From NCBI GenBank assembly GCA_030428835.1, contig JAUIEP010000019.1, forward strand, positions 1 to 45,807: DNA of 45,807 nucleotides, given 5' to 3'. The translations under genes and the position numbers were made by a program. Shown here piece after piece: positions 19,599-36,527 of the stretch (the first letter of the stretch is position 1; each line of letters starts with the position of its first letter). The notes beneath the pieces are model-generated. The model saw only the letters and a program-made list of their open reading frames with translations, was not told the origin of the DNA and searched no databases. Origin of the DNA: Gammaproteobacteria bacterium. Lineage in GTDB: Bacteria > Pseudomonadota > Gammaproteobacteria > Pseudomonadales > Halieaceae.

Positions 19599-20873
19599 TT
19601 GAAAGCAATTGTGCACATTGGTACCGAGAAAACCGGTACCACGTCCATTCAGAGCTTTCTGTACCAGAACCGCAAGAAACTGCAGAAGGAAGGCTTTCAC
19701 TTCCTGCAGTGTGCGGGCAAGACCAACAACCGCGAATTCCCCACCTATTGCATGAATAATTACCGGGATGACGATTTCTATCGCAATCTCGGCATCACAA
19801 CCCTGGATGGACGTATCGCGCACAAGCGCAAGTTCATCAAGAAGTTCGGCCGGGAGGTCGGTGGACTCCCTTCGGCCACACGGGCAGTCATAATCTCGAG
19901 CGAACATTTTCACTCCCGGATCCGGAGCGATGAGGAAGTGCACAATGTGCACCGGCTACTGTCCAGGTATTTCAGCGAGATCGAGATCGTCTGCTACCTG
20001 CGGGACCAGATTACGACCTGCACGTCTTGCTACTCCACCGCACTCAAATCAGGCAATCCGGCTTTGTTTGTCGAATTCGTCAAGAGCTGTACACCGGACA
20101 ATTACTACTACGACTACTGGGGCATGCTGCGAAGATGGGAGCACCACTTCGGGTTTGATGCGCTCAATGTCGCGTTGTTTTCGCGCGATCACTTTCTCAA
20201 TGGAAATCTGCTGGACGACTTCACCGCGAAGATCGACCCCGGGCTGGTTGGGACGCTCGATACAAACATCAGTAACGAGAACGAATCACTGAACCCCTCG
20301 GGGCAGGCGTTGTCACGCGCAATCAACCTCGCGTTTCCCATCCGCTCTGTACGGCCGGAACTGCAGTCGCTGCGGGAAAAGTGCCAACTCCACATCGCCG
20401 AGCACCATACAGGGAGGGGCAGGCAGTTGTCGCGCAACTACCAGCAGGAACTGTTCGAGCCCTTCGCCGCGATGAACGAATCGCTGCGGCAAAGGTACTT
20501 CCCGACTGAAGAAGCCATCCTGGAGCCGCCATCCGCGCCTGAAAATCCCCATCCGATTGCGGTGGCGGAACTCCTGCAGGGCTTCCAGGCATTGCTTGCA
20601 ATCATTCGCAAGGACGGCCGCCACATTGTGAACAAGGATGAATTTTCCGGGATATACAATGTGCTATTTTCATGCATCAACGAGTTGCTGTACAAGTATG
20701 GCGAGATGCGCCTGGTAAATGCCTTGAACCAGGAAGAGGCACTTTTTCTGCGGAAACTGGCACTTGAGGTTGAAGCACACAATGTACCGGCTGTGGCTAT
20801 ATTGCTCCGGTCACTGGGCCCCTTCGACCCGTCCCTGGCCGGGAGCGGCCCGGTTTCCGATGCGCTATGCTGA
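19599..20873 (+). CDS. Sulfotransferase-like protein with helical C-terminal extension
   Basis: A 424-residue protein of the PAPS-dependent sulfotransferase fold, which moves sulfate to a hydroxyl or amine of a glycan, lipid or peptide. The 5'-phosphosulfate loop is IVHIGTEKTGTTSIQSFL (4-21), and the 3'-phosphate motif is in VCYLRDQITTCTSCYSTAL near 130-147. The catalytic domain ends near 310. The last hundred or so residues are helical, and I do not recognise them. The start is TTG at 19599 with AGGTG about seven bases upstream; no ATG fits the P-loop position. It lies 28 bases before the radical SAM gene and is surely co-transcribed. Base use is less GC-rich than in the backbone genes. Confidence 0.83.
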   Translation: MKAIVHIGTEKTGTTSIQSFLYQNRKKLQKEGFHFLQCAGKTNNREFPTYCMNNYRDDDFYRNLGITTLDGRIAHKRKFIKKFGREVGGLPSATRAVIISSEHFHSRIRSDEEVHNVHRLLSRYFSEIEIVCYLRDQITTCTSCYSTALKSGNPALFVEFVKSCTPDNYYYDYWGMLRRWEHHFGFDALNVALFSRDHFLNGNLLDDFTAKIDPGLVGTLDTNISNENESLNPSGQALSRAINLAFPIRSVRPELQSLREKCQLHIAEHHTGRGRQLSRNYQQELFEPFAAMNESLRQRYFPTEEAILEPPSAPENPHPIAVAELLQGFQALLAIIRKDGRHIVNKDEFSGIYNVLFSCINELLYKYGEMRLVNALNQEEALFLRKLALEVEAHNVPAVAILLRSLGPFDPSLAGSGPVSDALC

Positions 20874-20901
20874 GTTTTAGTTTTGAGATAGGGTGGACCA
20901 T

Positions 20902-22560
20902 ATGCTTACCCCTGAGATAGTTGAGGAATTCAACCGAATTCGCAACACACCGGCCGGCACCTCCGCGTGCCCGGCGGCCGTCATCAACCTGCATTTCTCG
21001 CAGCAGGGCGTCGTCACCGCCTGCTGTTTCAATCGGCAGCAGGTGTTGGGCGTTTACCCCGAGAACTCCATCGACGAGATATGGAACGGCGAACCGATCC
21101 GGCAACTGAGGGATGCCCTCGACAGGAACGACCTCTCATTGGGATGCCAGAAATGTGAGCAACAGCTCGAGGCCAGGGACTATGGCGGTGCCCATGCGCT
21201 GTTCTACTCCGTATACGCCCGGATGACCGCGGAGAAGCGCATCGAACGCGGCCTGCAACCCGAGGGTGGCCCCGACGCCCCCCCGGTGCCAATGCGGCTG
21301 GAGTTCAACATCCACAACTCCTGTAACCTGGAGTGTGTGATGTGCCATGGGCTGGCATCGTCGTCGATACGGACGCGCCGCGAAAAACTGGCGCCGATGC
21401 CGAACCCCTACGATGAGGCATTCGTGGATCAACTGGAGCCGTTTCTTCCCTATGTCGTCGAAGCTGACTTCATGGGCGGCGAACCGTTCATGATCCACGC
21501 CTACCAGATGTTGTGGGAAAGGATTGCGCAGGTGAATCCCAAGATGGAGCTGTGCATCCTGACCAACGCGACGATACTCGACGACAAGATCAAGGATCTG
21601 CTGGAGAGGATCAACTGCCTGATGCACGTTTCCATCGATTCGATGTACAAGGAGACGTACGAGTCGATCCGCAAGGGCGCTTCGTTCGACGAGGTGATGG
21701 CGAACTGCATGTACTACCTGGACTTGATGAAAAGGAAGGGCCTGCCGTATACATGGCGCATGTGTCCGATGCGCCAGAACTGGAAGGAGATCCCGGAGAC
21801 CGTCAAGTTCTGCAACGAGAAGGGCATCACCCTGATGTACAACCAGGTTGATTCGCCGGTCAATTTTTCCTTACACACACTCCCGCAGTCCGAACTGCAG
21901 GAGGTCATCAACTTCTACAAACGGCATATACCGCCGGAAACTACGAACGAGGTGGAGCTGCAGAATCGCAGCAATTACATAGAGCTTATCCAACGCCTGG
22001 AAGGCTTCCTGGTGGCGGAGAACCGCCTGAACGGGCTGAAAGCCCGGCTCGACATTTCGAATTCCGTCATCAGCCAGTACACGAAGGGTAAGGACCAGAC
22101 GTCGAAGCGGGTCCCCGTGGTGGTAGTCGGGGAGTCGAGCAACGCCCTGGTCCAGGGTGCGAAACGGTACGTGTCGACGCGGATCAACGTGGACCAGGCA
22201 CGGACCACCGAGCTGCACTTGCCGGACGTCGTCCTGGACCGGGTGACCGAACAACTGGCCGAGATGCAGGCGCTGCTCGAGCAGACCGATGGCGCGGTAT
22301 TCACCAGGGTGTTCCTCAATGAGCTGATGCGCACCTATTCCGGCGTGGCAGGCGTCAGCCCCAGCGACGTCCATAGCGGAGACATCTTTGCGTGGATCGA
22401 GCAGTTCTCGGCAAAGCTGGCCTCTCACGAGAGCCAGCGACAGGTGATCGACAATCTATTGCAGGCTACTCCCGGAGACGTGTACGAGACACTGGCGCCG
22501 TCGCGCTCCGCGGCGGACGTGACGGAGCGCGTACTGCAGCGCTACGCGTCCCCCGCATAG
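20902..22560 (+). CDS. Radical SAM protein with N-terminal SPASM/twitch-like region
   Basis: A 552-residue radical SAM enzyme. The CX3CX2C site for the SAM-binding 4Fe-4S cluster is C141-NLE-C145-VM-C148, and the SAM motif GGEP is at 192-195. Unusually, the SPASM/twitch-like auxiliary part precedes the core: Cys23, Cys41-Cys42, then SIDEIWNGEPIRQLRDAL and GCQKC (Cys82, Cys85). After the core (to about 380) comes a helical extension of about 170 residues that I cannot assign. ATG 20902 is chosen because AGGGTGGA lies just upstream; GTG 20893 is possible. Relatives with SPASM parts usually modify peptides, but no precursor is recognised here. It may act with the sulfotransferase 28 bases upstream. 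Confidence 0.86.
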   Translation: MLTPEIVEEFNRIRNTPAGTSACPAAVINLHFSQQGVVTACCFNRQQVLGVYPENSIDEIWNGEPIRQLRDALDRNDLSLGCQKCEQQLEARDYGGAHALFYSVYARMTAEKRIERGLQPEGGPDAPPVPMRLEFNIHNSCNLECVMCHGLASSSIRTRREKLAPMPNPYDEAFVDQLEPFLPYVVEADFMGGEPFMIHAYQMLWERIAQVNPKMELCILTNATILDDKIKDLLERINCLMHVSIDSMYKETYESIRKGASFDEVMANCMYYLDLMKRKGLPYTWRMCPMRQNWKEIPETVKFCNEKGITLMYNQVDSPVNFSLHTLPQSELQEVINFYKRHIPPETTNEVELQNRSNYIELIQRLEGFLVAENRLNGLKARLDISNSVISQYTKGKDQTSKRVPVVVVGESSNALVQGAKRYVSTRINVDQARTTELHLPDVVLDRVTEQLAEMQALLEQTDGAVFTRVFLNELMRTYSGVAGVSPSDVHSGDIFAWIEQFSAKLASHESQRQVIDNLLQATPGDVYETLAPSRSAADVTERVLQRYASPA

Positions 22561-22622: not shown

Positions 22623-23591
22623 CTAGCCCACGCCCTCACGGAGACTGGCCAGGCGGGCGTGGGTTACCTCGTCCGCGGCGCCATTCGCAACCGCCTGCTC
22701 GTAAAACTTGACCGCCTCGTCAGCCCTGCCGAGCTCTTCCAGCACAGTGCCAAGACGGTTGTAGCCCAGGGCTTCGCCGGGACTGTGTTCGATTGCCTTG
22801 CAGTAAGCCGCTATCTGCGCATCCCGCTTGCCGGTCTGGTTCAGCACCTCGCCGATAACGATCAGCAGCTTCGGCAGGGTAGTCAGCCCGATGAGCTGGC
22901 TGTAAACCTCCGCCGCCTCCTCTTCCCGGCCGAGCAACAGTAACAGGCGCCCAAGGTTCTCGCGGCATTCGGGATTCGCAGGCTCGATCTCAATCCCTTT
23001 CCTGTAGTGGTTGATCGCGTCATCCCAGCGTTCCAACTGCTCGAGGACCTGACCGAGACCGTAATAAGGCAGGGCCCAATCCGGCTTCAGGTCAATTGCT
23101 TCCCGGTAGGCGGCCGCGGCCTCCTCCCAACGCCGCAACTTCGCCAGGGCGCGGGCCAGGCACTGGCGCGACGTGGGTTCCCCCGGGTTGACCCTGATGA
23201 CCTCCCGGTAGGCGTCGACGGCCTGATTCCAGCGCTTCGACTCCAGCAGGGCCTGGGCCAGGTAGTAGTGCGACCAGAAGTCCTCGGGCTCGATCCGGAT
23301 GGCCTCCCGGTAGGCGGCCACTGCTTCCTCCCAGCGCTGCAACGCCGAGAGCGCACGCCCCAGGCGGTGCTGCGCCCAGAAGTCATCGGGGTCGATCGCA
23401 ATTGCCTGCCGGTAGGCGGTCGTCGCCTCTTCCCAGCGCCTCAGTTCAGACAGGGACTGCCCCAGGTAGGCATGCAACGCGAACTTGTCGGGCTCGCCCT
23501 GGATGGCCAGCCGGTACTCGGTAGCCGCCTCCTCCCAGCGCTCTTGCCTGAAGAATTCGTCCCCGGCAAAGTGATGATTTATTCCGTCCAT
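22623..23591 (-). CDS. Tetratricopeptide repeat protein
   Basis: A 322-residue protein built almost entirely of about nine 34-residue TPR units, which act as protein-protein scaffolds. The repeating core is RWEEA-x2-AYREAI-x-I-x-P-(E/D)-D-F, strongest in units 1-6; the last three units are more divergent. There is no signal peptide or membrane segment, so it is probably cytoplasmic. The near-identical units give the DNA a 102-base periodicity. Part of the unit resembles the TPR of O-linked GlcNAc transferases, but no catalytic domain is present. It follows the unknown protein gene at 23671-24912 on the same strand with a gap of about 80 bases, and converges on the radical SAM gene. Confidence 0.92.
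   Translation of the reverse strand: MDGINHHFAGDEFFRQERWEEAATEYRLAIQGEPDKFALHAYLGQSLSELRRWEEATTAYRQAIAIDPDDFWAQHRLGRALSALQRWEEAVAAYREAIRIEPEDFWSHYYLAQALLESKRWNQAVDAYREVIRVNPGEPTSRQCLARALAKLRRWEEAAAAYREAIDLKPDWALPYYGLGQVLEQLERWDDAINHYRKGIEIEPANPECRENLGRLLLLLGREEEAAEVYSQLIGLTTLPKLLIVIGEVLNQTGKRDAQIAAYCKAIEHSPGEALGYNRLGTVLEELGRADEAVKFYEQAVANGAADEVTHARLASLREGVG
22640..23560 (-). repeat. Coding tandem repeat of 102 bases (TPR units)
   Basis: Within the TPR gene the bases coding for cggtaggcgg and cctcccagcg recur at roughly 102-base steps. This reflects recent duplication of 34-residue TPR units, not a CRISPR array: there are no unique spacers and the frame is kept throughout. Confidence 0.8.
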
Positions 23592-23670: not shown

Positions 23671-24912
23671 CTACGCGAGGAGGTCGTCTATCACCTGCTC
23701 GGGCAATGGCAGCGCTTCCAGATTCCTGACGATCCTGTGCGTATCCTCCCTGTACTCCCTTGCCAGTTCCGCGAGGACGTTATTATCGAGCGGTTCATAC
23801 GGGTCAAGGAAGGGTGGCGTCCAGTTCTGGTAGTACGCATGGCCCATCCGCGCGGCCATAGGTTTTACGTGTCGTACCAGGTGGCCACCATCGAACATGA
23901 ACATCGGTGACCTGTTGATAACCCGCAGGAACGTCGAATAGGAGGCGAGGTTCCAGTAGAACACGTACTCGGCATCCAGCAGGAGGGAGGTAAATTTCTC
24001 GTAAGCGCAAAAATTCAGCAAATCCTTCCGGGCGGATACGGGAATCCGGCCCCTCAGTTTCTGCACACACTCATTCGGCGCAATAAAAATGCAACGCCTG
24101 CCCTGCCCAAGGGTCTCATGCACCTGCCTTTCCAGTATGTCGAGAAACTCGGCCTCGGAGAACAACTGGGTTTGCAGCTCATAGTCCACCGAGCCGAGGA
24201 TGAACAGCCAGTGCGGGCGTTCAGGTGCCCCGGCACCGTTAGCGTGCAGCGGGGTGGTACCGGGGTCAGTCGAACCGTCCTTTTCGCCGCTGATCAGGCT
24301 GGGGTTGAAGAACCAGGCATTGTGCTCGCTTCCCTCGAACGGCTCATCCTGGGGATCGGGGCAACAGTAGTAGAGGTGAACAGTGTCCTTGAGAATGTGG
24401 GAGGCAATCGCGAACTGCTCCAGTATGTGCAAATTGCCTAATGTCGCATTTATCCTGTACTCCCAGGTGTAACCGGGAATCAGGTCGGTTTCGAAGAGCC
24501 GAAGAGACTCCGGCCCATTGATATTCGCAGGCCCCATGCGCGAGAAAATCCCAAAGAACGGGTCGCTGGTGACGACCTTGATATTTCTCTCGAACAACAG
24601 CTCAACAAGCCCGGCCATGGCGTCGAGCGAGAGCAATTCGTGATTGGGCAGTATGTAGCCTGAAAAAAGGAAGAAGATATCGGGCTGGACCTCGTCCACC
24701 CTATGAATGACGTCTTCTATGGACTCGTATTGTTGCGTCGCGCAGGGCAGGGTGTCCCTGTTGCTGGCAAACAACCGGGGCGGGAGTAGAACCGTGGACA
24801 TATCCACCAGTTCGCGGCCCTGCAGGAAATACATCGTAAGGCCCAGTTCGCCATAGTCGTTATTGAGCAGAAACATCAATCGGGGACTACGGCTGGTCGA
24901 GTTTTCAGGCAT
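23671..24912 (-). CDS. Protein of unknown function, NDYGEL family, short form
   Basis: I do not recognise this 413-residue protein. It is a clear paralogue of the first 400 residues of the protein at 33487-35808. Shared stretches are NDYGEL (18-23), LLPPRLFASN, LFSGYILPNHEL, TSDPFFG, HWLFILGSVDYE, HETLGQGRRCIFIAP, DAEYVFYWN and a glycine-aspartate motif FDGGHLVRH. The pattern of alternating strands and helices, with aspartates at strand ends, is compatible with a GT-B-like or other Rossmann fold, but that is only a guess. No signal peptide or membrane helix. ATG 24912 is chosen by comparison with the paralogue; the frame is open to a GTG at 24969. Ribosome site weak. It is upstream of and probably co-transcribed with the TPR gene. 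Confidence 0.8.
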   Translation of the reverse strand: MPENSTSRSPRLMFLLNNDYGELGLTMYFLQGRELVDMSTVLLPPRLFASNRDTLPCATQQYESIEDVIHRVDEVQPDIFFLFSGYILPNHELLSLDAMAGLVELLFERNIKVVTSDPFFGIFSRMGPANINGPESLRLFETDLIPGYTWEYRINATLGNLHILEQFAIASHILKDTVHLYYCCPDPQDEPFEGSEHNAWFFNPSLISGEKDGSTDPGTTPLHANGAGAPERPHWLFILGSVDYELQTQLFSEAEFLDILERQVHETLGQGRRCIFIAPNECVQKLRGRIPVSARKDLLNFCAYEKFTSLLLDAEYVFYWNLASYSTFLRVINRSPMFMFDGGHLVRHVKPMAARMGHAYYQNWTPPFLDPYEPLDNNVLAELAREYREDTHRIVRNLEALPLPEQVIDDLLA

Positions 24913-25021
24913 AGGTTTTTTTATTTTAAATATCTTCGGTGTATGTCGCAGACACGGGCTGTAAAGCACGCTTCGCGCTCTGGTAGTCTAAGGTTTTCCA
25001 GAGGGAGAAGCGAGATGACGT

Positions 25022-25120: not shown

Positions 25121-25175
25121 TGATTTGCGCCGTTTTGTGAAGCAGGTCCCAAACCAACCCCCGGCAAGGTCACGT

Positions 25176-26618
25176 ATGATCGTTTCAATAGAGACACCAG
25201 TATTCAAGGGCAAGTGGCTGAAACAGTGCATCGACTCGGTACTCACCCAGAGCTCGCCGAACTGGTTTCTCTCGCTCTGCTGGGATGGTGGTGACGACCA
25301 GTCACGCAGGATTCTCGAGGAACTGAAGGAGCGCAACCACCCGAATATCAAGATCTATTTCGAGGAGAACCGCGGTATTGCCCGTGCCCGGCACTTCCTG
25401 TCCGAGCGCTCGAGGGGCGACTACATCCTTCCTCTCGATGACGACGATGTACTGACGGCCGACGCCGTGGAAAAGCTCCTGGCCTTTGTAGAGAAGAAGC
25501 CCTGGAGCGGCATCGTCCGGGCCCGGCGCAAGTTTATCGACGAGGACGGGCGGGTGGTGGACCAGGAGCCATGGTTTCCCTTCGAACCGAGACACTACCA
25601 GCACGGCATGGTTACGGACATCTTCAATCATGCGCAGCCCTACCTGATCAATCGCGAACTGTATGGCCGGACGGCGGGCTGGGAGGGGTTCGAGGATTTC
25701 AAGTTCGCGGGGGAGGACTGTGACATCATCCTCAAGCTGGAGGAGCTCGCCCCGATCGAGCTGCTCGACGACGTGCTGTACTACTATCGGCTTAACCCCA
25801 ATCGCGCCAGCGACGAGCTGGAAGTCGCGGGCGCTCACGAGATGTGGCGGCGTCTCGCGGACAAGAGCATCGCCCGCATGGGCCTGCCCCTCGAGCGGGA
25901 GAACGATGTTCCGCCCTACACGTACAAACGCCTGCCGCAGCCCATACCCGACACGACAATGATTGATTTCGTCATCCCCCACCAGGGAGGGATGCGAGGC
26001 TTTATCGAGAGGCGGCAATACCGGGCCGCCCTGAAACGCTTCGGGATTGCGAACGATGCAATACACTTCGTCAGGTTGAGAAAGAACGATATCGCAACGA
26101 CCCTGAACCAGGGCTTCCAGCAGACGTCCCGCCCGCTGGTATGCTTCCTGTACGGGGGTGTCCAGGTTGATGATCCGAAGTTCTTCGACGCCATGCTGGC
26201 CACCCTGCACGAGCAGCAGGCGGATATCATCGGTCCCAAATTCGTCGGTCCGGACGGCAGCGTCCGCGCTGCCGCGCCCTGTTTCGACGACAACCAGCTT
26301 CCCGCGTTACGAAAAGGCGGGGAAGACGATGAAGACGAGGCCGCCCGTGTTGCCGACGCCCAGTGGCTACCCGCGCAGCTACTGCTGGTCCGCCGCGAGG
26401 TGGTGAACGCGGTTGCGGGGTTCGACGCGGGCTTCTCCTGCCCACGAATAGCAAGCGCGGATTTCTGCCTGAAAGCGCGGCAGAGGGATTTCCGGTGCCT
26501 CTACGATGGAACGGTTGCCGCGCTCTGTGATATCCCCGTCGACGCGGAAAGCACCGCTGCGGATATCGAGCGGTACCACGACAAGTGGAGCAGTTACACT
26601 CACCTGTTCTGGGACTGA
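25176..26618 (+). CDS. Family 2 glycosyltransferase with two GT-A-like modules
   Basis: A 480-residue glycosyltransferase that would transfer a sugar from a nucleotide sugar. The first module (about 1-240) has MIVSIETPVFKGKWLKQCI, RGIARARHFLSERSRGDYI and the metal-binding LDDDD at 87-91. The second module (about 260-480) reads like a degenerate family 2 domain: DFVIPHQGGMRGFIERRQY, PLVCFLYGGVQVDD, QWLPAQLLLVRREV and VAGFDAGFSC. Its acidic motif is VDDPKF. ATG 25176 has AAGG six bases upstream and begins at the expected first strand; the frame is open from a TTG at 25125. There are no membrane segments, so it is probably cytoplasmic. It is alone on the plus strand, divergent from the unknown family gene and convergent with the aminotransferase. 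Confidence 0.88.
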   Translation: MIVSIETPVFKGKWLKQCIDSVLTQSSPNWFLSLCWDGGDDQSRRILEELKERNHPNIKIYFEENRGIARARHFLSERSRGDYILPLDDDDVLTADAVEKLLAFVEKKPWSGIVRARRKFIDEDGRVVDQEPWFPFEPRHYQHGMVTDIFNHAQPYLINRELYGRTAGWEGFEDFKFAGEDCDIILKLEELAPIELLDDVLYYYRLNPNRASDELEVAGAHEMWRRLADKSIARMGLPLERENDVPPYTYKRLPQPIPDTTMIDFVIPHQGGMRGFIERRQYRAALKRFGIANDAIHFVRLRKNDIATTLNQGFQQTSRPLVCFLYGGVQVDDPKFFDAMLATLHEQQADIIGPKFVGPDGSVRAAAPCFDDNQLPALRKGGEDDEDEAARVADAQWLPAQLLLVRREVVNAVAGFDAGFSCPRIASADFCLKARQRDFRCLYDGTVAALCDIPVDAESTAADIERYHDKWSSYTHLFWD

Positions 26619-28062: not shown

Positions 28063-28398
28063 CTAGTCCGGGTTGCCCGACAGGGAGCGCTCGATATCCT
28101 GCATCTGCGGCTCCACGATACTGCGCCAGGATGTTCCGTCTGACCTTTCACCCTCGAGCGAAATCGGAGTGTCACCCACGTCGGGCTGGAAGAGGGCGAG
28201 CGATTTCGCCATGCCCATGAAGGATTCCTTCTGCGCGTCGTCGGTCGCGCGTTTGTACAGCGCTATTGCGGCAGCCTGGATCTGGTCTTTCGGCAGGGGG
28301 AGCAGGGAACTGTCCATTACACTGGTGCCGCCTCCCCCGCCCTTCTGCAGTACAGGAACATAGGACTGGATAATCTCAACCGCATCATCGATCTGCAT
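28063..28398 (-). CDS. Small stand-alone FQP-module protein, function unknown
   Basis: A 111-residue protein that I cannot assign to any known family. It consists of one copy of the module found once in the SGNH protein and three times in the protein at 33487-35808: SSLLPLPKDQIQAAAIALY (30-48), SLALFQPDVG (66-75) and SWRSIVEPQM (90-99). A KGGGGGTS stretch at 19-26 replaces part of the first helix-turn of the other copies. There is no signal peptide and no membrane helix. The start is firm: GGAGG lies five bases before ATG 28398. It sits between the acyltransferase gene (upstream) and the aminotransferase gene (downstream) on the same strand. It could be a docking or regulatory subunit; that is a guess. 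Confidence 0.85.
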   Translation of the reverse strand: MQIDDAVEIIQSYVPVLQKGGGGGTSVMDSSLLPLPKDQIQAAAIALYKRATDDAQKESFMGMAKSLALFQPDVGDTPISLEGERSDGTSWRSIVEPQMQDIERSLSGNPD

Positions 28399-28587
28399 AT
28401 TTTCCTCCGTCAGAGTCCTTCGAGTTTGATTCGCCAGCACCGGGGCATTGTTCTCGTTACCGTTGTCGCGCTGGAACTGCCTCGCAGTGGCAGGAAGCGT
28501 CCCAGCCTCGCCCCTGTCGTCCTCGTGCACCGACTCGCAGCGCCCATCTTGCAAAAATACTTGTAGCCGCGCAAACGGGTTGGCTCG

Positions 28588-29790
28588 TTATGCCTTCTGC
28601 ACAACGGGTTTCGCCTCCACCTGGCCCGCGGTCGCCGCCGGGTCGCCCGCATCTGCCGCCGCCGCGCGCCGGCGCATTCTCTTACTCAGGTTGCTCGAGT
28701 ATTTCATCGTCGGCGCCTCGATCTTCTCGTAGGAGATGCTGGAAAGCTTGTGCGCCAGGGTAATCGATATCGCCGCGACCACCGCCATGAACAGGAAACG
28801 GATCTCACCGGCCGTCTGTTGCCCAACCAACCGGAACAGGAAGTAGGCGACCCAGTAGTTGATGAGGAAATGGGATATGTAGAACGAGTAGGAAATCTGG
28901 CCCATGCGCTGTATCCGGGGGCCATCGAGAAACCGGAACAGGGCGCGGTCCCGCTTCATGTAAATGCACGAGAAAATTACGAAACCGCCGGTCACCAACT
29001 GCACCATCAGCGTCGCGAACGGCATTTTCTTCTGCATGACCGGAAACACGAGCAACAGGAAGATACTCGTCCAGAGCAGGAACGTTCCGGTGCGGCCAGA
29101 TATCCGCTCGATGAGGCGCTTGTAAAGTGGTGCGGCAGCGAGACCCCAGTAAAACGCCACGAGGTAATGAAGCAGCCTGATCTCTCCAAAAATAAAAGAG
29201 CAGGCCATGAGGAATATCAGCAGCAGAATATTTCCCGCCACCCCCCCTTTCTTGTAGATCACGTACAGGAGCGGGTAGATAAGGTAGACGAGCAGCTCGA
29301 GGGTGAGTGTCCATTCCCCGGGGATGAGCGAGGTGATCACCAGACCGAGATTCAGCACGAATATCGCCAGATTCATCGGCCCGCTGTTCATCTCGTTGAA
29401 CCAGCGGTCGGCGGTCGCTATCTGCCCGGGGGCATAGAACAGGAGCAGCATGCCGAGCGCGATAAACATCCAGACAATATGCGCCGGGAATATGCGGAAG
29501 ATTCGGCGCATGTAGAAGATCAGGATGTTCCTGAACGTCGTTTCGCTCCTGTCCAGGGAGATGCTGAGTACGTAGCCGCTTATCACGAAGAAGGTGATCA
29601 GGGCCGACGTGCCCTGGAACAGGATATGCACCCAGAGTTGCAGGGTGGCCTGCAGCGGATATTGCTCACTGGCATACGCAAAGATCGCGAAACAATGGGT
29701 CATCGCCACCATAATTGCCGCGCAACCACGCACCGATTCCAGGCGGGTTAGAAAGCGTGAATCCGGGCTGGGAGGAGTAGGACCGCTCAT
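28588..29790 (-). CDS. Acyltransferase 3 family membrane protein
   Basis: A 400-residue integral membrane O-acyltransferase (acyltransferase 3 family, as in OafA and NodX), which acetylates or acylates surface polysaccharides. Near the N-terminus [18 protein letters not shown] carries the conserved R-x10-H catalytic pattern of the family. About ten hydrophobic helices follow, including [17 protein letters not shown] and [17 protein letters not shown]. The C-terminal tail is charged and rich in Arg and Ala, then ends QKA. ATG 29790 has AAGGA four bases upstream. It is the first gene of a minus-strand run with the FQP-module and aminotransferase genes. No fused SGNH domain: that activity is encoded separately at 31494-33440. 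Confidence 0.92.
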
Positions 29791-30371
29791 GGTTTCCTTG
29801 CAAGGCTTCCCGGCTGCGCGCCACCGCGAAACTTTCGCGAGGAGCAGTACCCGCCGGGGCACGGCCAGCGGGCTCAGGACAGTGTGCCGTTGCCGCAATT
29901 ATAGTGTGCGGCAGGCGTTGTTCGAGGGTCAAACTCGAATACTGCGCGCATGGTCTCAAAACCGCGGCGGCTCGTGTCACGCCCGGGGGCCTGTTCCACC
30001 GGAGCGTGCTTCAGGCCGGTGCATGGCACGGTCGTCCCGGACCAGGTCGAGCCGCGGGTTGGAGCGGGGCGCAATACCGATACCGCGGGGCGGCAGTGCC
30101 CTCGCTGAAGGGGCGACTCGCCGGCGCCGGCGCGGTGAACATTGTCGCCAGGGCCCGTGAATGCGCGGTTATCGGGGCCTGCGTCACGAAAATTGCATTT
30201 ATCCATAGGCCCTGGCGCTCCCGGCCGTTGCGGCGTGGCCAACCCGGCACTAAGCTCAATAGATGTAAAGCGTCGTTTACCAGTGATTCCCGGCCCTCTT
30301 CCCGGGTATGGATGTCACGCTCGAGGACTGCCAGCCAGGCGATCGGGAATGGTAAGCAAGGAAAACCGGCG
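29791..30371. other. Divergent intergenic region between acyltransferase and YVTN genes
   Basis: These 581 bases show no convincing gene. An open frame continues upstream from the YVTN gene, but it has no ribosome site, and the signal peptide of that gene lies at 30372. The region holds an inverted repeat with an embedded -10 sequence (29891-29913) and a smaller 6-bp inverted repeat, TTCGAG/CTCGAA, at 29921-29939. Nothing else was seen. Confidence 0.55.
29891..29913 (-). promoter_or_regulatory. Inverted repeat enclosing a TATAAT box
   Basis: TGCCGCA and TGCGGCA form perfect 7-bp arms around 9 bases. On the minus strand the centre reads TATAAT (29898-29903), about 100 bases upstream of the acyltransferase ATG. 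A repressor binding here would cover the -10 box. No good -35 is present at the usual distance. Confidence 0.45.
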
Positions 30372-31454
30372 ATGTACCACCTGACAACGCGCTCCGCGAC
30401 CCTGGCGCTTGGCCTGCTGCTCTCAAGCGCGCCGGCTCTCGCCGAGCCCTTTGCCTATATCACCAATGCGGCCGACAACACGCTCTCGGTCGTCGATACC
30501 GCCACCAATACCGTCGTGGAAACCGTTGTGGTAGGCACCGGCCCCTTCGGTGTCGCCGTGCACCCGGAAGGTCACACCGCCTATACCGCGAACCTGTACG
30601 ACAACAGCGTGTCCGTCATCGATACCGCCTCCAATACCCTGGCGGACACGATACCGGTAGGCAACTGGCCGTTCGGCCTGGACCTCCTCCCGGACGGCAG
30701 CGCGCTGTACGTGGCCAACTTTCTCGACTCCAGCATTTCCGTTATCGATACCTCGACCAACACCGTGGTCGATACCGTGGCGGCGGGTACGAACGCGCGC
30801 TCCGTCGCGATGCACCCGGACGGCAGCACCGCCTACGTGGTCAACAACAACGCGGACAGCGTATCGGTCATCGACACCGCGAGCAGGGTGGTCGTGGACA
30901 CGGTCGCGGTCGGCGCCCATCCCAGGGGCATTGCCGTGAGTCCCGACGGCAGCACGGCGTACGTCACCAACAACGACGGCGACACCGTCTCGGTGATCGA
31001 CACTGCCAGCGACACGGTGACGACCACCATCCCGGTGGGGGCCGGCCCAATCGGCGTCGCCGTACACCCGGACGGCGACGTGGTGTACGTGGGGAACCGG
31101 GACTCCGCCGATCTCTACATTATCGACGCGGCGACCAATACGGTGGTGGATACCGAACCGGTCGGCGCCTCGCCGCGCGGCGTCGCCGTGCACCCGGACG
31201 GCGGTACGGTGTACGTGACAAACTCCGGCAGCGACAGCGTGACTGTCATCGACACGGCTACCCACAATGTCGTGGCCACCATCGCAGTGGGCCACTCGCC
31301 CTATGCCTTCGGCCGCTCCATGGGGCCACTGGCCGACACCGACGGCGACGGCGTCCCGGACATCTACGACAACTGCCCCCTGGCTCCCAACCCAGGGCAG
31401 GAAGACGAGGACGAAGACGGCAGGGGCGACGCCTGCGAGATACCGGGGTGCTGA
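30372..31454 (+). CDS. Secreted YVTN beta-propeller protein with calcium-binding tail
   Basis: A 360-residue exported protein. The signal peptide [19 protein letters not shown] ends at PALA before EPFAYITN. Seven repeats of about 42 residues follow (about 25-320), each with AYVTN, VSVIDTA, NTVVDTVPVG and GVAVHPDGS-like blocks, which fits a seven-bladed propeller. The tail [14 protein letters not shown] (322-335) and [10 protein letters not shown] is a thrombospondin type 3-like calcium-binding repeat, often found on surface or secreted proteins. ATG 30372 has AAGGA nine bases upstream. It lies 39 bases before the SGNH gene and is probably co-transcribed. Binding of a protein or glycan partner at the cell surface is a plausible role; no catalytic motif seen. 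Confidence 0.9.
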
Positions 31455-31493
31455 TTCCCAGGTAGCTGCTGACACCCGCAACCCGACCTGCTC

Positions 31494-33440
31494 ATGGAAA
31501 ACCAGACTCGACAACCGGGAACACTGCCCGCTCTCCTGTACCTGGCCTGCAACCTCCTGGGACTGGCCCTGTGCCTGTTCACCCTCAGCGAGATGTGGGA
31601 GTACCGGCCTATCCTGCACCTGATGCTGTCGCGGATCGCCGTGGTCAACCTGTTCGGCGGCCTGGTGCCGATGTGGGGCCTGTTCGCACTGCTCGCGCTC
31701 GTGACCCTCACAGGAATCATCAAGACCATACACCTGCTGTGGACCTTGCGAACCGGCGCACCGATCCCGGGGCTGGCACTGCGATTCAGAGCCGCGTTCT
31801 ACCTCGGCAGCGGCTGCCTGTTTGTCTGCGTTTTCATTCTGTCGACGCCAGAGTCATTCTCGGGCCCGTTCCGCCTGCGGCATCCCGTCGCCGCGTGGAT
31901 TACCGCCAGCCTCGCCTGCGGGCTCTGGTGGTTGCTACCGCAACTCAGGTTCCGGCTGTCGGACCGCGCGGTCGCGCGCATCGACCTCGTTGCCATGAAC
32001 GTGTGCCTGGCATTGTTGTTGGCTGAACTGACACTGCGCGGTGCCGCGCTCGTTTGGGCCAGTCCGCTGCTGGTGACCGATTCGACATCCTCACAGATAA
32101 GGCGCCAGTCGGAGCGCATGGCGCCCGGCGCCGATCGATTCTCGTTCCCGATCAACTCGCAGGGGTTCTACGACACCGAGTTCCTGCCCCCGGAGGAACG
32201 CTCGCGACCACTGGTCGTCACCATAGGCGACTCTTTCAGCTACGGCGTGGTGCCGCACCACTTTCATTACACCACGGTGGCCGAGCGCGCATTTCCTGGC
32301 GCGGAGATCTACAACATCGGTTTTCCCGGCACGAATCCCACCGACTACCTGGCCCACGTCACGGAGGACGCCCTGCCACTGGAGCCCGACCTGATCGTCA
32401 TTGCATTGTATGTGGGCAACGATCTCGCCCCCGAGCCCCCCTCGGTCTCGCCGATACGCTGGTATGACGCGGACAGCTACCTCCTCGGGGTCGTCTGGCA
32501 CCGCCTGCGCATCCTGCGCGTCGCCCAGGCAAACAACTGGACGCAGGGCGAGGAGGACTCGAGCAGCGGCGACCTCATCGAGCGCTATCCGTGGTTGGCC
32601 GACCCGTCACTGGAGCCGCCAAGCCTGGGCCAGGAAATCTACTTCGAAATGGCGGCGCGCAATGCCTACCTCGGCACGGCAGACCACCCGGGTGTCTATG
32701 AAGGGTTCTTCGCCGCGATGTACCGGATCGAGAGAGCTGCAGGTGATGTTCCCCTGGCGTTCATGCTGATTCCCGACGAGTTCCAGGTGAACGATGCGCT
32801 GTGGGAGGTCGTGGTAAAGAGAAATAAGCTGCCACTGCAGCGGGATTTGCCGCAACAGAAGATTCTCGAGTGGGCGGCGGAGGGCAACCGGGATGTTCTG
32901 GACCTGTTGCCGCTCATGCGTGCCGTGCCGCCCCTGCCGGACGGGCAGCGGCACCTCTACCACTTGCGCGACGGCCACTTCAATGCCCGCGGCAACGAGG
33001 TCGCGGGCCGTGCACTCGCGGGCCTTATCGCCCGCAGGTTCGCCGCCAAAGACGATACCGTCACCGAACTTTCGCTGCCCGAGCCGCGCGGCGCAGGCAG
33101 GATGTCGGTGGGCGAGGCAACGGTGGTCGTGCAGGAGTTCGGCGCACTCATCAAGGAACTCGGGGTCAACGGCAAGACCGTATACCCGGACTCGGCGCTG
33201 GGCGCGAGCAAGCAGGAAATCAAGACCGCTATCGTCACGGTGCTGAAGGGCGGTGTCGCCGCAAAACAGCCGGATTTCTACCGGGAACTCGCTTCCATTC
33301 TCGCATTCTTCCAGCCCGGGATCGGCGGCGACGGTGTGTCCCTCGATGCGGTCAGGGCCGACCAGACAACGTGGCGACCGATCGTGGAAGCCGAGATGCG
33401 CGAGAACGTCCGCTTCGTGGCGTCAGGAGCCCAACCGTAG
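31494..33440 (+). CDS. Membrane SGNH/GDSL hydrolase-like protein with C-terminal FQP module
   Basis: A 648-residue protein with about five membrane helices in the first 190 residues, for example LPALLYLACNLLGLALCLFTL and LVAMNVCLALLLAELTLRG. A large SGNH domain follows, with VTIGDSFSYG (Ser247), YVGND (Asn309) and the Asp493-x-His495 pair in RDGHFNARGNE. Such domains remove or transfer O-acyl groups on surface glycans. Residues 537-648 are an FQP module: ILAFFQPGIG and TWRPIVEAEM. If the helix count is right, SGNH and FQP parts are periplasmic. Start ATG 31494 has no strong ribosome site. It is downstream of the YVTN gene, and it could pair with the acyltransferase 3 protein as in split OafA-like systems. 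Confidence 0.85.
   Translation: MENQTRQPGTLPALLYLACNLLGLALCLFTLSEMWEYRPILHLMLSRIAVVNLFGGLVPMWGLFALLALVTLTGIIKTIHLLWTLRTGAPIPGLALRFRAAFYLGSGCLFVCVFILSTPESFSGPFRLRHPVAAWITASLACGLWWLLPQLRFRLSDRAVARIDLVAMNVCLALLLAELTLRGAALVWASPLLVTDSTSSQIRRQSERMAPGADRFSFPINSQGFYDTEFLPPEERSRPLVVTIGDSFSYGVVPHHFHYTTVAERAFPGAEIYNIGFPGTNPTDYLAHVTEDALPLEPDLIVIALYVGNDLAPEPPSVSPIRWYDADSYLLGVVWHRLRILRVAQANNWTQGEEDSSSGDLIERYPWLADPSLEPPSLGQEIYFEMAARNAYLGTADHPGVYEGFFAAMYRIERAAGDVPLAFMLIPDEFQVNDALWEVVVKRNKLPLQRDLPQQKILEWAAEGNRDVLDLLPLMRAVPPLPDGQRHLYHLRDGHFNARGNEVAGRALAGLIARRFAAKDDTVTELSLPEPRGAGRMSVGEATVVVQEFGALIKELGVNGKTVYPDSALGASKQEIKTAIVTVLKGGVAAKQPDFYRELASILAFFQPGIGGDGVSLDAVRADQTTWRPIVEAEMRENVRFVASGAQP
33102..33437 (+). 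other. FQP module at the C-terminus of the SGNH protein
   Basis: Residues 537-648 of the SGNH protein align with the stand-alone 111-residue protein and with the three repeats of the 773-residue protein. Conserved anchors are Phe-Gln-Pro in FFQPGIG and the Trp-Arg-x2-Val-Glu-x2-Met block. This copy is the most divergent in its first half (GKTVYPDSALGASKQEIKTA). Confidence 0.8.
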
Positions 33441-33486
33441 ATCCCTGCCGGCGGGCCCGCTGCCACCACCGGAGCATAGTGGCAGT

Positions 33487-35808
33487 TTAAGCCGACAGCT
33501 CCCGGGTGATCGCGTTCATCTCGGCCTCGACCGCCGCTCGCCAGGGCCTGCCGTTGGGTCCCGGCGAATCGATCGCCTGCCTGCCGGCGCCGACACCCGG
33601 CTGGAAGAACGCCAGCGTCGGCGCTGCCAGGCGCGCGAAGTCGGCCTGGTTCCCGGCCCCGCTTTCGAGCAGCAGCGTGATGGCATCCTTGATACCGCTT
33701 TTCGGATAGGCCAGCAGTGCAATGTCGACGACGAAGCTCCCGTCCAACTCGTTGGCGGAGACGATTTCGTGGAGTCGCTGCACGACATCGAGCGCTTCCA
33801 CCAATTCGCCCGCCTCCCCGGCAGCCTGCCCGGGCTCCAGCGCGGGTGACGAGGAGCGCGAGCGGTGAGGCGCGAGCAGGTCCCTGGTGATGGCGATCAT
33901 CTCGGCCTCCACAGCCGCTCGCCAGGGCTTGCCGTCCGGACCGGGCGAGTCCATCGCCTGTCCGCTCGCGTCGACTCCCGGCTGGAAGAATGCCATCGTC
34001 GGCGCCGCCAGGCGTGCAAACTCTGCCTGGTTCTCTGCTCCGCTTTCCAGCAGCAGCGCTATCGCATCCTGGATAACGCTTTTCGGGTGGTCGAGGAGCG
34101 CGGTGTCGACGACAAGGCTCCCATCCAGCTTGTTCGCGGCGACGATCTCGCCGAGTCGCTGTGCGATCCCGAACGCCTCAGCCAGCGCTTGTTCCTCCTC
34201 TGCCGTACGCACGGCACCGGGGCCGGAAGACGGCGACTGCGCGGCGAGGATGTCCCTGGTGATCGCCACCATGTCGGCCTCAACGGCCGCCCGCCAGGGC
34301 TCGCCGTCCGGACCGGGGGAATCGATCGGCTGCCGCTTCGCACCGACGCCGGGCTGGAAGAACGCCAGCGTCGGCGCGGACAGGCGCGCAAATTCGGACT
34401 GCTCCGCGGCACCGCGTTCAAGCAGCAGCGTGATGGCGCCCTGGATGTCGCTTTTCGGGTAGTCGAGGAGTTCGGTGTCGACAACGAAGCTGCCGTCCAG
34501 CCCGTTGGCCGAGACGATTCCGCCCAGCCGCTGGACCATGGCGAACGCCTCCACCAGGGCGTTCGCCTCCCGCATCACCTGCTCCGGCTCCAGCGCGGAA
34601 AAGAGCGCCTCCGGGGTGGGGGAGGAAAGGAGTCCGTGCCGGACCCGCCAGGACGATATCATGTTCCGCTTTTTTGCCTGTTGCAGCGCGTCGATGGTAA
34701 GCGTGGAATTGATATCGAGGCGGGGCGGTTCATCCCCGCGATAGAACCACTCGTGGATTCGCCTGGCATAGGCGTCGTTCATGCCCCGCAGCAGGTGGCC
34801 GTCGTCGAAGGTGAACCAGGGCTTGTCCGTCAGCGTCCGCAGGATGCAGCTGAAGGAAACGGCATTCCAGTAAAACACATACTCCGCGTCCCGCAGCAGT
34901 GACTGGAAGCGTGAGTACTCGCAATGGGGCAGCAGTTCCATCGCGTCGGCGGCGTGACTGTGCTTGCGCACGGCGTCGACGACGCTCGCGGGTGCGATAA
35001 GTGTGGGAACACGCCCCGCCTCGAGCGTTTCGTGCAGCTTGCGCAGCAGGACAATGCGAAACTTCCGTGAACTTTCTCGCAGCGCCCGTCCATACTTCGC
35101 TTCCTGTACTGCGTAGTCCTCGTTCCCGAGAACGAACAGCCAGCGTTGCTGTTCCAGGCGCGTCGAGGGCGTGGTTGCAGCCGGGGCATGCCCGGATTGC
35201 AGGAATATCGCCGGGTTGTGGAAGTGTAGCCGCGCTCCGTAATCCTGGTCCGTTTCTTTCGGCGATTCGCCACACGGATACACGTGGAGCACACCCTGCA
35301 GCATGCGATGCATTGCACCCAGCTCCAGCTTGCTCTCAGCCACCTGCGCCTCGGCGGCAATCCTCATCTTCACAATCCGCGAGAACAGCGACCAGAAAAT
35401 CGAGTACTTCGGCGCCATGAACTTGACAAGTTCGTCGGGCTCAACTTCATCCAGGAGACCGAGGAACGGGTCGCTGGTAAAGCACTTCCATCCCTGCGCC
35501 CGCGTCGAACCCAACAGGGATTCGAGATCCTCTGTGCTGCACAAGTTGTGAATCGGAAGCAGGTACCCTGAGAAGAGGCCCAAAATGCCCGGCTCAAGTT
35601 TGCCGACCTGTGCACGAACATCGTCGAGCGAGTGGTATTCGAAAGTGCGCCCGGGCAGGACGCCGGAATTTTTCGCATACAACCGCGGCGGCAGCAGCAG
35701 TGTTGTGTTGGCCGCGAACGGCTGGCCGGCGAGGAGGTACAGCGCGAACGCCAGCTCACCGTAGTCGTTGCAAACGACCAGTACTAGCGGTTTGTCGCTG
35801 TCCGCCAT
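33487..35808 (-). CDS. Protein of unknown function, NDYGEL family fused to three FQP modules
   Basis: A 773-residue protein that I do not recognise. Residues 1-400 are a paralogue of the protein at 23671-24912, with NDYGEL (14-19), LLPPRLYAKN, LFSGYLLPIHN, TSDPFLG, RWLFVLGNEDY, DAEYVFYWN and TFDDGHLLRG. Residues 417-522, 541-646 and 668-773 are three copies of the FQP module, joined by linkers of 18-21 residues rich in Ala, Ser, Pro and Glu. There is no signal peptide or membrane helix, so it is probably cytoplasmic. ATG 35808 is the natural start. It lies 101 bases downstream of the second sulfotransferase on the same strand and converges on the SGNH gene. Enzymatic activity is unknown; a glycosyltransferase-like fold is only a guess. 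Confidence 0.82.
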   Translation of the reverse strand: MADSDKPLVLVVCNDYGELAFALYLLAGQPFAANTTLLLPPRLYAKNSGVLPGRTFEYHSLDDVRAQVGKLEPGILGLFSGYLLPIHNLCSTEDLESLLGSTRAQGWKCFTSDPFLGLLDEVEPDELVKFMAPKYSIFWSLFSRIVKMRIAAEAQVAESKLELGAMHRMLQGVLHVYPCGESPKETDQDYGARLHFHNPAIFLQSGHAPAATTPSTRLEQQRWLFVLGNEDYAVQEAKYGRALRESSRKFRIVLLRKLHETLEAGRVPTLIAPASVVDAVRKHSHAADAMELLPHCEYSRFQSLLRDAEYVFYWNAVSFSCILRTLTDKPWFTFDDGHLLRGMNDAYARRIHEWFYRGDEPPRLDINSTLTIDALQQAKKRNMISSWRVRHGLLSSPTPEALFSALEPEQVMREANALVEAFAMVQRLGGIVSANGLDGSFVVDTELLDYPKSDIQGAITLLLERGAAEQSEFARLSAPTLAFFQPGVGAKRQPIDSPGPDGEPWRAAVEADMVAITRDILAAQSPSSGPGAVRTAEEEQALAEAFGIAQRLGEIVAANKLDGSLVVDTALLDHPKSVIQDAIALLLESGAENQAEFARLAAPTMAFFQPGVDASGQAMDSPGPDGKPWRAAVEAEMIAITRDLLAPHRSRSSSPALEPGQAAGEAGELVEALDVVQRLHEIVSANELDGSFVVDIALLAYPKSGIKDAITLLLESGAGNQADFARLAAPTLAFFQPGVGAGRQAIDSPGPNGRPWRAAVEAEMNAITRELSA
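33490..34560 (-). repeat. Three in-frame tandem copies of the FQP module
   Basis: Units at 34243-34560, 33871-34188 and 33490-33807 each code for 106 residues, with starts 124 and 127 codons apart. The protein copies are near-identical in LLLE-x-GA, FARL(A/S)APT(L/M)AFFQPGV, DSPGP-(D/N)-G and PWRAAVEA(E/D)M, and the DNA is visibly similar too, which indicates recent internal duplication. Confidence 0.9.
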
Positions 35809-35909: not shown

Positions 35910-36527
35910 CTAGTACATCTCTTCGTGCAGAAGATTACCATAGACCCTGCGCTCCAGTTTTGCCCATAGCGGGTTTTTGCGATACAGGCGCTTCATTTCC
36001 CTGCGGGAGTACCACTTGGCCAGGTCCCTGCTGTAGTCGTTGGAATTCATCTGTTTCGAGAGTGTCGAGAAATCCTTGCCGGTGAGGTCCAGGTAACGAC
36101 CAAACACCGCAATAAAATCTTCCTCCAGGTTTTCCGTCCTGAGCCAATGGCTGATTGTCGTGAAATCGTAATGCTCCAGCAGCGCGTCGGCGGAATTCTT
36201 CCAGCCATCGGCCTCCATGAACCGGCCGGTGAGCAGGTGCTCCCTGGTGTGCCGGATATCCGGGTTCAGTGATTCCGTGTAGTGAATCTTGCTCACGATA
36301 TATGCGGGCAGTCGCCGGATATTCGCCACCAAGTCTTTGCCCCCCAGGGAAACACCGGTGCGTCGCTCGCGCTCCTGGATCGTCTCGTGCCAGATGGGTA
36401 CGCCCTGGCCGGTGACATCGAACACGATCGACGGGTCAGTCCCGAAATTCTGGAGCAGGGCGGACTCGGTGGTCGTTCCCGCGGCCTTGGGAAAGTGCAG
36501 CCAGATAAATGAATCGCCGATGATCAC
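35910..36527 (-). CDS. Sulfotransferase family protein, short form
   Basis: A 205-residue PAPS-dependent sulfotransferase-like protein. FIWLHFPKAAGTTTESAL (7-24) is the phosphosulfate-binding loop, and FTTISHWLRTENLEEDFIAV carries the RxENLxxDF block seen in bacterial and carbohydrate sulfotransferases. The start is GTG at 36527 with a GGGATGA sequence upstream; no in-frame ATG precedes the P-loop closely. At 205 residues it is short but appears complete. It is the outermost gene of the accessory block and lies upstream of the NDYGEL/FQP gene. It is only distantly related to the sulfotransferase at 19599-20873. Acceptor unknown. Confidence 0.84.
   Translation of the reverse strand: MIIGDSFIWLHFPKAAGTTTESALLQNFGTDPSIVFDVTGQGVPIWHETIQERERRTGVSLGGKDLVANIRRLPAYIVSKIHYTESLNPDIRHTREHLLTGRFMEADGWKNSADALLEHYDFTTISHWLRTENLEEDFIAVFGRYLDLTGKDFSTLSKQMNSNDYSRDLAKWYSRREMKRLYRKNPLWAKLERRVYGNLLHEEMY

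Follow-up and report, generated by a model that had tools for sequence, protein, structure and literature searches.

The FQP module is a predicted helical domain of about 105 residues that occurs in five copies, in three proteins, in a stretch of 45,807 nucleotides from a Gammaproteobacteria bacterium of the family Halieaceae (GenBank assembly GCA_030428835.1, contig JAUIEP010000019.1). This stretch, hereafter the window, is one entire contig out of the 319 that make up the 5.2 Mb genome. We found that the module is a real shared add-on of a known general kind, with its own predicted fold and undescribed in the libraries searched; it is not an orphan, as profile comparison identifies homologous small unannotated proteobacterial proteins. 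The likeliest role is that of a common targeting element, itself without catalysis, for enzymes that modify a glycan or glycoconjugate, a reading that we hold at about even odds. New here are four further matches in the same genome, carrier proteins across the genus, and a radical SAM relative that lacks the module. The copies in the window are arranged as follows.

28063..28398, minus strand: stand-alone FQP module protein of 111 amino acids counted from its ATG, with the module at 28066-28398, directly downstream of the acyltransferase gene
31494..33440, plus strand: SGNH-type protein, anchored in the membrane, its C-terminal FQP module at 33099-33437
33487..35808, minus strand: NDYGEL protein, its N-terminal part putatively GT-B-like, with three FQP modules in tandem at the C-terminus
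34231..34563, minus strand: tandem FQP module 1
33862..34191, minus strand: tandem FQP module 2
33490..33810, minus strand: tandem FQP module 3

These five copies had been proposed from the letters of the window alone; their coordinates were confirmed, and the copies retrieve one another between contexts at E values of 8e-15 to 5e-8. A profile built from the tandem copies only, run against the six-frame open reading frames (ORFs) of the window of at least 30 amino acids, recovered the SGNH copy at a domain E value of 8e-15 and the stand-alone copy at 4e-13, the next match being at 0.54. Single-sequence searches with the SGNH copy recovered the other four at 9.8e-15 to 9.1e-12, and those with the stand-alone copy recovered the other four at 1.8e-13 to 4.9e-8. 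The likeness of the five copies is not due to chance, since the profile that excludes the other contexts and the single-sequence searches each recover the remaining copies. The tandem copies are 77-78% identical to one another in DNA, and the stand-alone copy is 65% identical (105 amino acids) to the module on a different SGNH protein, in the relative G118.

The AlphaFold2 model of the module, computed from 18 aligned copies taken from the window and named relatives, has a predicted local distance difference test score (pLDDT) of 91.6 and a predicted template-modelling score (pTM) of 0.81. Helices are predicted at residues 2-21, 39-52, 55-70, and 92-108 and a single short strand at 28-31, which gives the element order helix, short strand, helix, helix, helix. 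The original prediction had described a helix-rich N-terminal half; helices are indeed predicted there, but the model is helical throughout. In the 28 aligned rows, L34, K38, and Q71 are invariant, L67, F70, and V95 are kept in 27, and A68 is kept in 26. Invariant positions are thus few, and no set of catalytic residues is evident.

The view that the module belongs to no known family was borne out in Pfam, NCBIfam, PHROGs, the PDB sequences, and Foldseek searches of PDB and viral structures. None of the 28 aligned members, and none of the window proteins, gave a Pfam match above cut-off for the module; NCBIfam gave nothing for it in the three window carrier proteins, and the PDB sequences gave zero matches at E 10. 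The best weak Pfam match (0.0095) came from a single member and lay under the curated cut-off, and the best PHROGs match (0.014), also from one member, lay below clear significance. Foldseek, the structural comparison that had been proposed, was run with the module model and returned nothing significant from the PDB (best E 0.61) or from viral structure models (best E 1.6). Further weak Pfam matches (DUF7740 at 0.075, and others), each from one member and under cut-off, were not used. An acyl or peptidyl carrier protein was considered and rejected: a serine at the start of helix 2 is present in only 18 of the 28 rows, and no carrier family matched. No relatives were found in viral_contigs by a search with the module alignment, which did not include the phages collection, or in plasmids with two queries, and no paper among the literature matches listed, judged by title or start of abstract, describes the module.

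At E <= 0.001, the module is matched in 7 of the 140 genomes of the family Halieaceae. Within the genus, five of 18 genomes are positive, with 28 matches in total including those of the genome itself, which has nine, four of them outside the window; two genomes of another Halieaceae genus have one weak match each. Two of the 28 genus matches were dropped as fragments (a contig-edge fragment on C106 and a fragment on C201 of G118), and the copy on C64 was kept in the counts although it lacks the last helix. The resulting 26 copies are distributed over 24 proteins: ten radical SAM, four SGNH, three NDYGEL, and one sulfotransferase carrier, three stand-alone proteins, and three small proteins with a hydrophobic, signal-like N-terminus. 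In every fused carrier (18/18), the module is C-terminal. The triple copy was found in no other genome; in the two relatives whose NDYGEL carrier is whole, that carrier has a single module. Among the relatives, G128 is Halioglobus japonicus isolate BC5_1, G120 is a Halioglobus metagenome-assembled genome (MAG), and G127 is a gammaproteobacterial MAG.

Radical SAM proteins are the commonest carriers and often lie outside the gene island described below. Two of the ten are assigned above the Pfam cut-off, three by NCBIfam matches below cut-off, and four by similarity to the other six; the carrier on C253 has SPASM above cut-off and radical SAM just below it (27.2 vs 29.5 bits). The sulfotransferase carrier matches PF17784 with 78 bits against a cut-off of 22.8. 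The SGNH protein of the window has a weak Pfam ALGX match (13.5 bits, cut-off 26.5), and its SGNH reading also draws on similarity to its relatives; the SGNH carrier of G118 is AlgX-like, with an ALGX match of 40.4 bits against the same cut-off, and bears the module after the ALGX part. A 1300-amino-acid protein adjoining a module-bearing radical SAM gene in G118 (L060:3190-7089) matches the hydrazine synthase alpha middle domain (45.4 bits, cut-off 26.6).

The relatives of one radical SAM carrier illustrate how the module is attached. Across the 140 genomes, nine such proteins share at least 45% identity, the query included, and eight of them have the module. The ninth, on C52 of G128, is 42-48% identical to the carriers and ends near the expected module start; the module is therefore an add-on and not part of the enzyme core. 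More distant radical SAM relatives in G047 and G121 are also without it. The SGNH core is found in 4 of the 140 genomes (E <= 1e-15), three with the module, and the fourth is a 27% match in G119, a genome without any module match. A FastTree tree was computed for 28 modules, with the two weak Halieaceae relatives as root. In it the SGNH modules group with the modules of adjoining radical SAM carriers (0.87), though the carriers themselves are unrelated, which argues for copying of the module between adjoining genes. The tandem copies all fall into a single clade (0.98) within the NDYGEL group (0.99), and the stand-alone copy of the window pairs with the module on another SGNH protein in G118 (1.0). 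Support is low at several deeper nodes, with 0.27 as the lowest value, so that the tree does not fix the sequence of events.

With a search profile of 28 rows, in which the two weak Halieaceae relatives were added to the 26 copies, the module proved homologous to small, unannotated, stand-alone proteobacterial proteins that carry the motifs LPxPKxxIxxA and then LAxFQ or LAQFIPD. In other gammaproteobacterial families these are open frames of 127-191 amino acids, with 10 of 369 genomes positive at E <= 0.001, the own genome included; a 657-amino-acid protein of G404, one of those ten genomes, was judged a chance match (E 9e-4) and dropped. In another class, a 230-amino-acid protein was found at E 4e-15 (2 of 398 genomes at E <= 1e-5, the own included), and its genome is the sole positive among 61 of its family. 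Comparison by hhalign of the module with the small proteins, with no shared rows, gave 96.6% probability and E 5e-10, and with the two weak Halieaceae relatives 97.9% and E 6e-13. The reverse search from the small proteins matched 6 of 274 genomes; in the own genome it recovered two modules, with E values of 5e-5 and 9e-5. By profile similarity over the helical core, the small proteins and the module belong to one superfamily. Ten of the small relatives were scanned, and none had a Pfam or NCBIfam family above cut-off.

The small proteins differ from the FQP module in that they are stand-alone and have another C-terminal part and other neighbours. In two families they lie near FHA-cyclase, cNMP-binding, NERD, TerB, and DUF2914 genes, and the Halieaceae pair lies near dihydrouridine synthase and oxaloacetate decarboxylase genes; these neighbours were assigned by Pfam on one genome each and for the rest by BLAST. 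At L077-L081, in five genomes, the small relative is convergent with a gene for an FHA and nucleotide-cyclase protein (by Pfam on L078, by BLAST on the other four), with a cNMP-binding-type gene near, and these loci are possibly signalling loci.

The three carriers of the window stand in an island whose content recurs in G127 and G128 and partly in G118. Its other features in the window are the following.

19599-20873: sulfotransferase-like gene, Pfam 16.4 bits, under the cut-off of 27
20893..22560, plus strand: radical SAM/SPASM protein without module, Pfam Radical_SAM 3e-15, NF033640 166.3 bits against a cut-off of 170
22623..23591, minus strand: TPR protein of the recurring island, similar to proteins of L055 and L056, the L055 fusion being TPR by Pfam
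23671..24969, minus strand: NDYGEL paralogue without module, perhaps GT-B-like (low confidence)
25125..26618, plus strand: family 2 glycosyltransferase, Pfam Glycos_transf_2 8e-25
28588..29898, minus strand: membrane acyltransferase adjoining the stand-alone module, Pfam Acyl_transf_3 1.1e-24
35910-36527: gene without a Pfam family match

Genes for a GMC oxidoreductase, an aminotransferase, TPR and NDYGEL proteins, a family 2 glycosyltransferase, a radical SAM protein, an SGNH-module protein, and the solo module are common to the window, G127, and G128. Genes for a FAD enzyme, a ThDP enzyme, and a GNAT protein were seen in G127 and not in the G128 stretch read, where the extras are an AT3-SGNH protein, a carbamoyltransferase, a DegT aminotransferase, and a GNAT-type protein. 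The G118 island has NDYGEL (cut), SGNH-module, aminotransferase, and family 2 glycosyltransferase genes. The radical SAM protein of the window has the same domain order as the carrier on C253, SPASM and then radical SAM, but no BLAST similarity to it at 1e-5. NDYGEL proteins (in the window at 23671-24969 and 34600-35808) have no Pfam family above cut-off and no NCBIfam match; at E 1e-8 they occur in 4 of the 140 family genomes, all four module-positive. Modelling of the paralogue at 23671-24969 reached only low confidence (pLDDT 63, pTM 0.65). The best PDB matches of this model, with E down to 1.6e-6 and TM of about 0.25-0.45, are what we take to be mostly GT-B glycosyltransferases, a polysialyltransferase, and UDP-sugar epimerases, and the NDYGEL proteins are perhaps GT-B glycosyltransferase-like. 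The gene content together with this fold likeness suggests that the island encodes a glycan or glycoconjugate pathway. One idea is that the TPR protein could be a scaffold, by analogy with AlgK (PMC9734138).

In the island of G128, an 866-amino-acid protein (L055:16485-19082) fuses NDYGEL and TPR parts, and a separate adjoining TPR/NDYGEL pair is also present, as in the window. The same island encodes a protein of 1878 amino acids (L055:8824-14460) with FG-GAP, ASPIC/UnbV, and Y_Y_Y repeats, whose C-terminal part weakly resembles vanadium chloroperoxidase (VCPO_2nd, 20.2 bits vs a cut-off of 27). A membrane protein of 57-72 amino acids (L056:13066-13236 and L058:15872-16087) lies one gene from the carbamoyltransferase gene and is 95% identical (55 residues) between two relatives; the stand-alone module protein is 75% identical.

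The topology of the carriers was estimated by a crude count of hydrophobicity and charge. No membrane segment was called in any of the ten radical SAM carriers, in the sulfotransferase, or in the three stand-alone proteins, and the three NDYGEL carriers have one near-threshold stretch only, at the first Rossmann-like strand. The SGNH carrier of G118 has one N-terminal segment with positive charge before it and not after, and the three signal-like forms are alike; by this single segment and charge pattern, their modules are predicted to be extracytoplasmic. At the threshold set, the three long SGNH carriers are called with four membrane segments in two cases and five in the third, one of them inside the SGNH part, with a further weak segment (1.36-1.37) in two of the three. 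In these long forms, that of the window included, the low charge after the last anchor favours the outside, but by this count the side of the module is uncertain.

In the explanation that we prefer, the FQP module would be a small, independently folding helical domain, kin of the small stand-alone proteins. Through duplication it would have come to stand at the C-termini of radical SAM/SPASM, SGNH, GT-B-like, and sulfotransferase enzymes, and these enzymes would assemble or modify a glycan or glycoconjugate in certain Halioglobus-like species. The module, without catalysis of its own, would serve them all as a targeting element and tether each enzyme to one common pathway target, and the triple copy would raise avidity. 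We infer the non-catalytic nature, the targeting, the glycan pathway, the identity of the target, and the direction of spread. The targeting role is suggested because one module occurs on four unrelated enzyme types and in stand-alone forms and is C-terminal in all 18 fused carriers. The add-on state, the grouping in the tree, the triple copy of this genome, the scarcity of invariant residues, and the enzymes encoded in the island speak for the explanation as well. Docking domains of biosynthetic assembly lines are also terminal add-ons that organise pathway enzymes; they act as short matched pairs, whereas the FQP module is one repeated module type with no partner known.

The original prediction had given the module a docking, recognition or scaffold role for the locus and proposed to test whether its relatives cluster with the gene set found there. 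The module is indeed common to unrelated enzymes of one island with recurrent content, the island contigs (C309, C50 of G127, C8 of G128, and C201 of G118) account for 14 of the 24 carriers, and the NDYGEL genomes are all module-positive. However, docking for the locus is too narrow, since the other ten carriers are encoded elsewhere, some carriers are predicted to be extracytoplasmic, and distant stand-alone relatives occur in other Gammaproteobacteria and in one genome of another class; docking as such is hypothetical.

Several points weigh against targeting within a glycan pathway. Beyond the carriers on other contigs, some of which adjoin housekeeping-like genes (judged by eye), the distant stand-alone relatives adjoin unrelated genes, and the neighbourhoods imply no shared function. 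The module has no known partner or ligand, and the invariant polar residues K38 and Q71 may leave room for an activity. The GT-B reading depends on a low-confidence model, and the sulfotransferase-like gene of the window falls under the Pfam cut-off. In addition, carriers predicted both inside and outside the cytoplasm would be awkward for a single protein hub.

Modules on both membrane sides would favour a mobile target such as a glycan. A narrower version of the targeting explanation, which we regard as a tentative possibility, is that the glycan or glycoconjugate is itself the ligand of the module, which would let enzymes on either side of the membrane hold the same molecule; this would account for the predicted cytoplasmic and extracytoplasmic carriers together. 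In the case of AlgX, an SGNH acetyltransferase, a C-terminal carbohydrate-binding module is thought to bind the glycan (PMC4148444), and the accessory module comprises residues 348-463 (PMC9734138). The AlgX-like carrier of G118, with its Pfam ALGX match, has a comparable arrangement of an SGNH part and then an accessory module of similar length, and by analogy its FQP module would stand where AlgX has the carbohydrate-binding module (PMC4148444). However, the FQP module is helical, matches no carbohydrate-binding family, and also occurs on enzymes without a signal or membrane segment; the membrane side is uncertain for three of the four SGNH carriers, and sugar binding is purely hypothetical. 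It is rather doubtful, though conceivable, that the module is a substrate-recognition domain independent of enzyme class, guiding glycosyl-, sulfo-, radical SAM, and SGNH enzymes to a single substrate that is reached from either side of the inner membrane. Self-association, in which module copies bind each other and fused enzymes and the stand-alone protein co-assemble, with the stand-alone protein as cap or bridge, is in keeping with the coexistence of stand-alone, fused, and tandem forms, but carriers on opposite membrane sides could not meet, and we consider it unlikely.

A recognition element of the type known from ribosomally synthesized and post-translationally modified peptides (RiPPs), by which the module would bind a precursor peptide modified by the enzymes, is very improbable. 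The RiPP recognition element (RRE) is a domain of about 110 amino acids, discrete or fused to tailoring enzymes including radical SAM enzymes and glycosyltransferases (PMC12710340), and the FQP module resembles it in size and in its distribution over fused and discrete forms. The same source defines the RRE by three β-strands followed by three α-helices; the FQP element order differs, and no PqqD-type match (PF05402) appeared in the Pfam scans, so identity with the RRE was rejected. When small ORFs were compared across the window and L055-L059 (four genomes), no conserved precursor-like ORF emerged, though short divergent peptides could escape this comparison; it yielded the stand-alone module protein, ORFs in overlapping frames, weak matches of 11-29 residues, and the 57-72-amino-acid membrane protein. 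A passive domain that duplicates and tolerates C-terminal fusion with no pathway role would fit the patchy occurrence in the genus and the scattered carriers, but the same fusions recur in relatives and the core residues are strongly kept, which makes it scarcely credible.

Even without a function, the module defines an unannotated domain superfamily with a confident predicted fold and no significant match in the PDB or viral libraries, and the NDYGEL proteins gain a first structural lead, possibly GT-B-like at low confidence. A substrate-recognition domain of the kind considered above would be the glycan counterpart of the RRE. Should the module indeed bring enzymes to a shared partner or substrate, searches for it could serve to pick out tailoring enzymes that would not be recognised otherwise, and radical SAM proteins whose substrate is unknown would be linked to glycan modification in marine bacteria.

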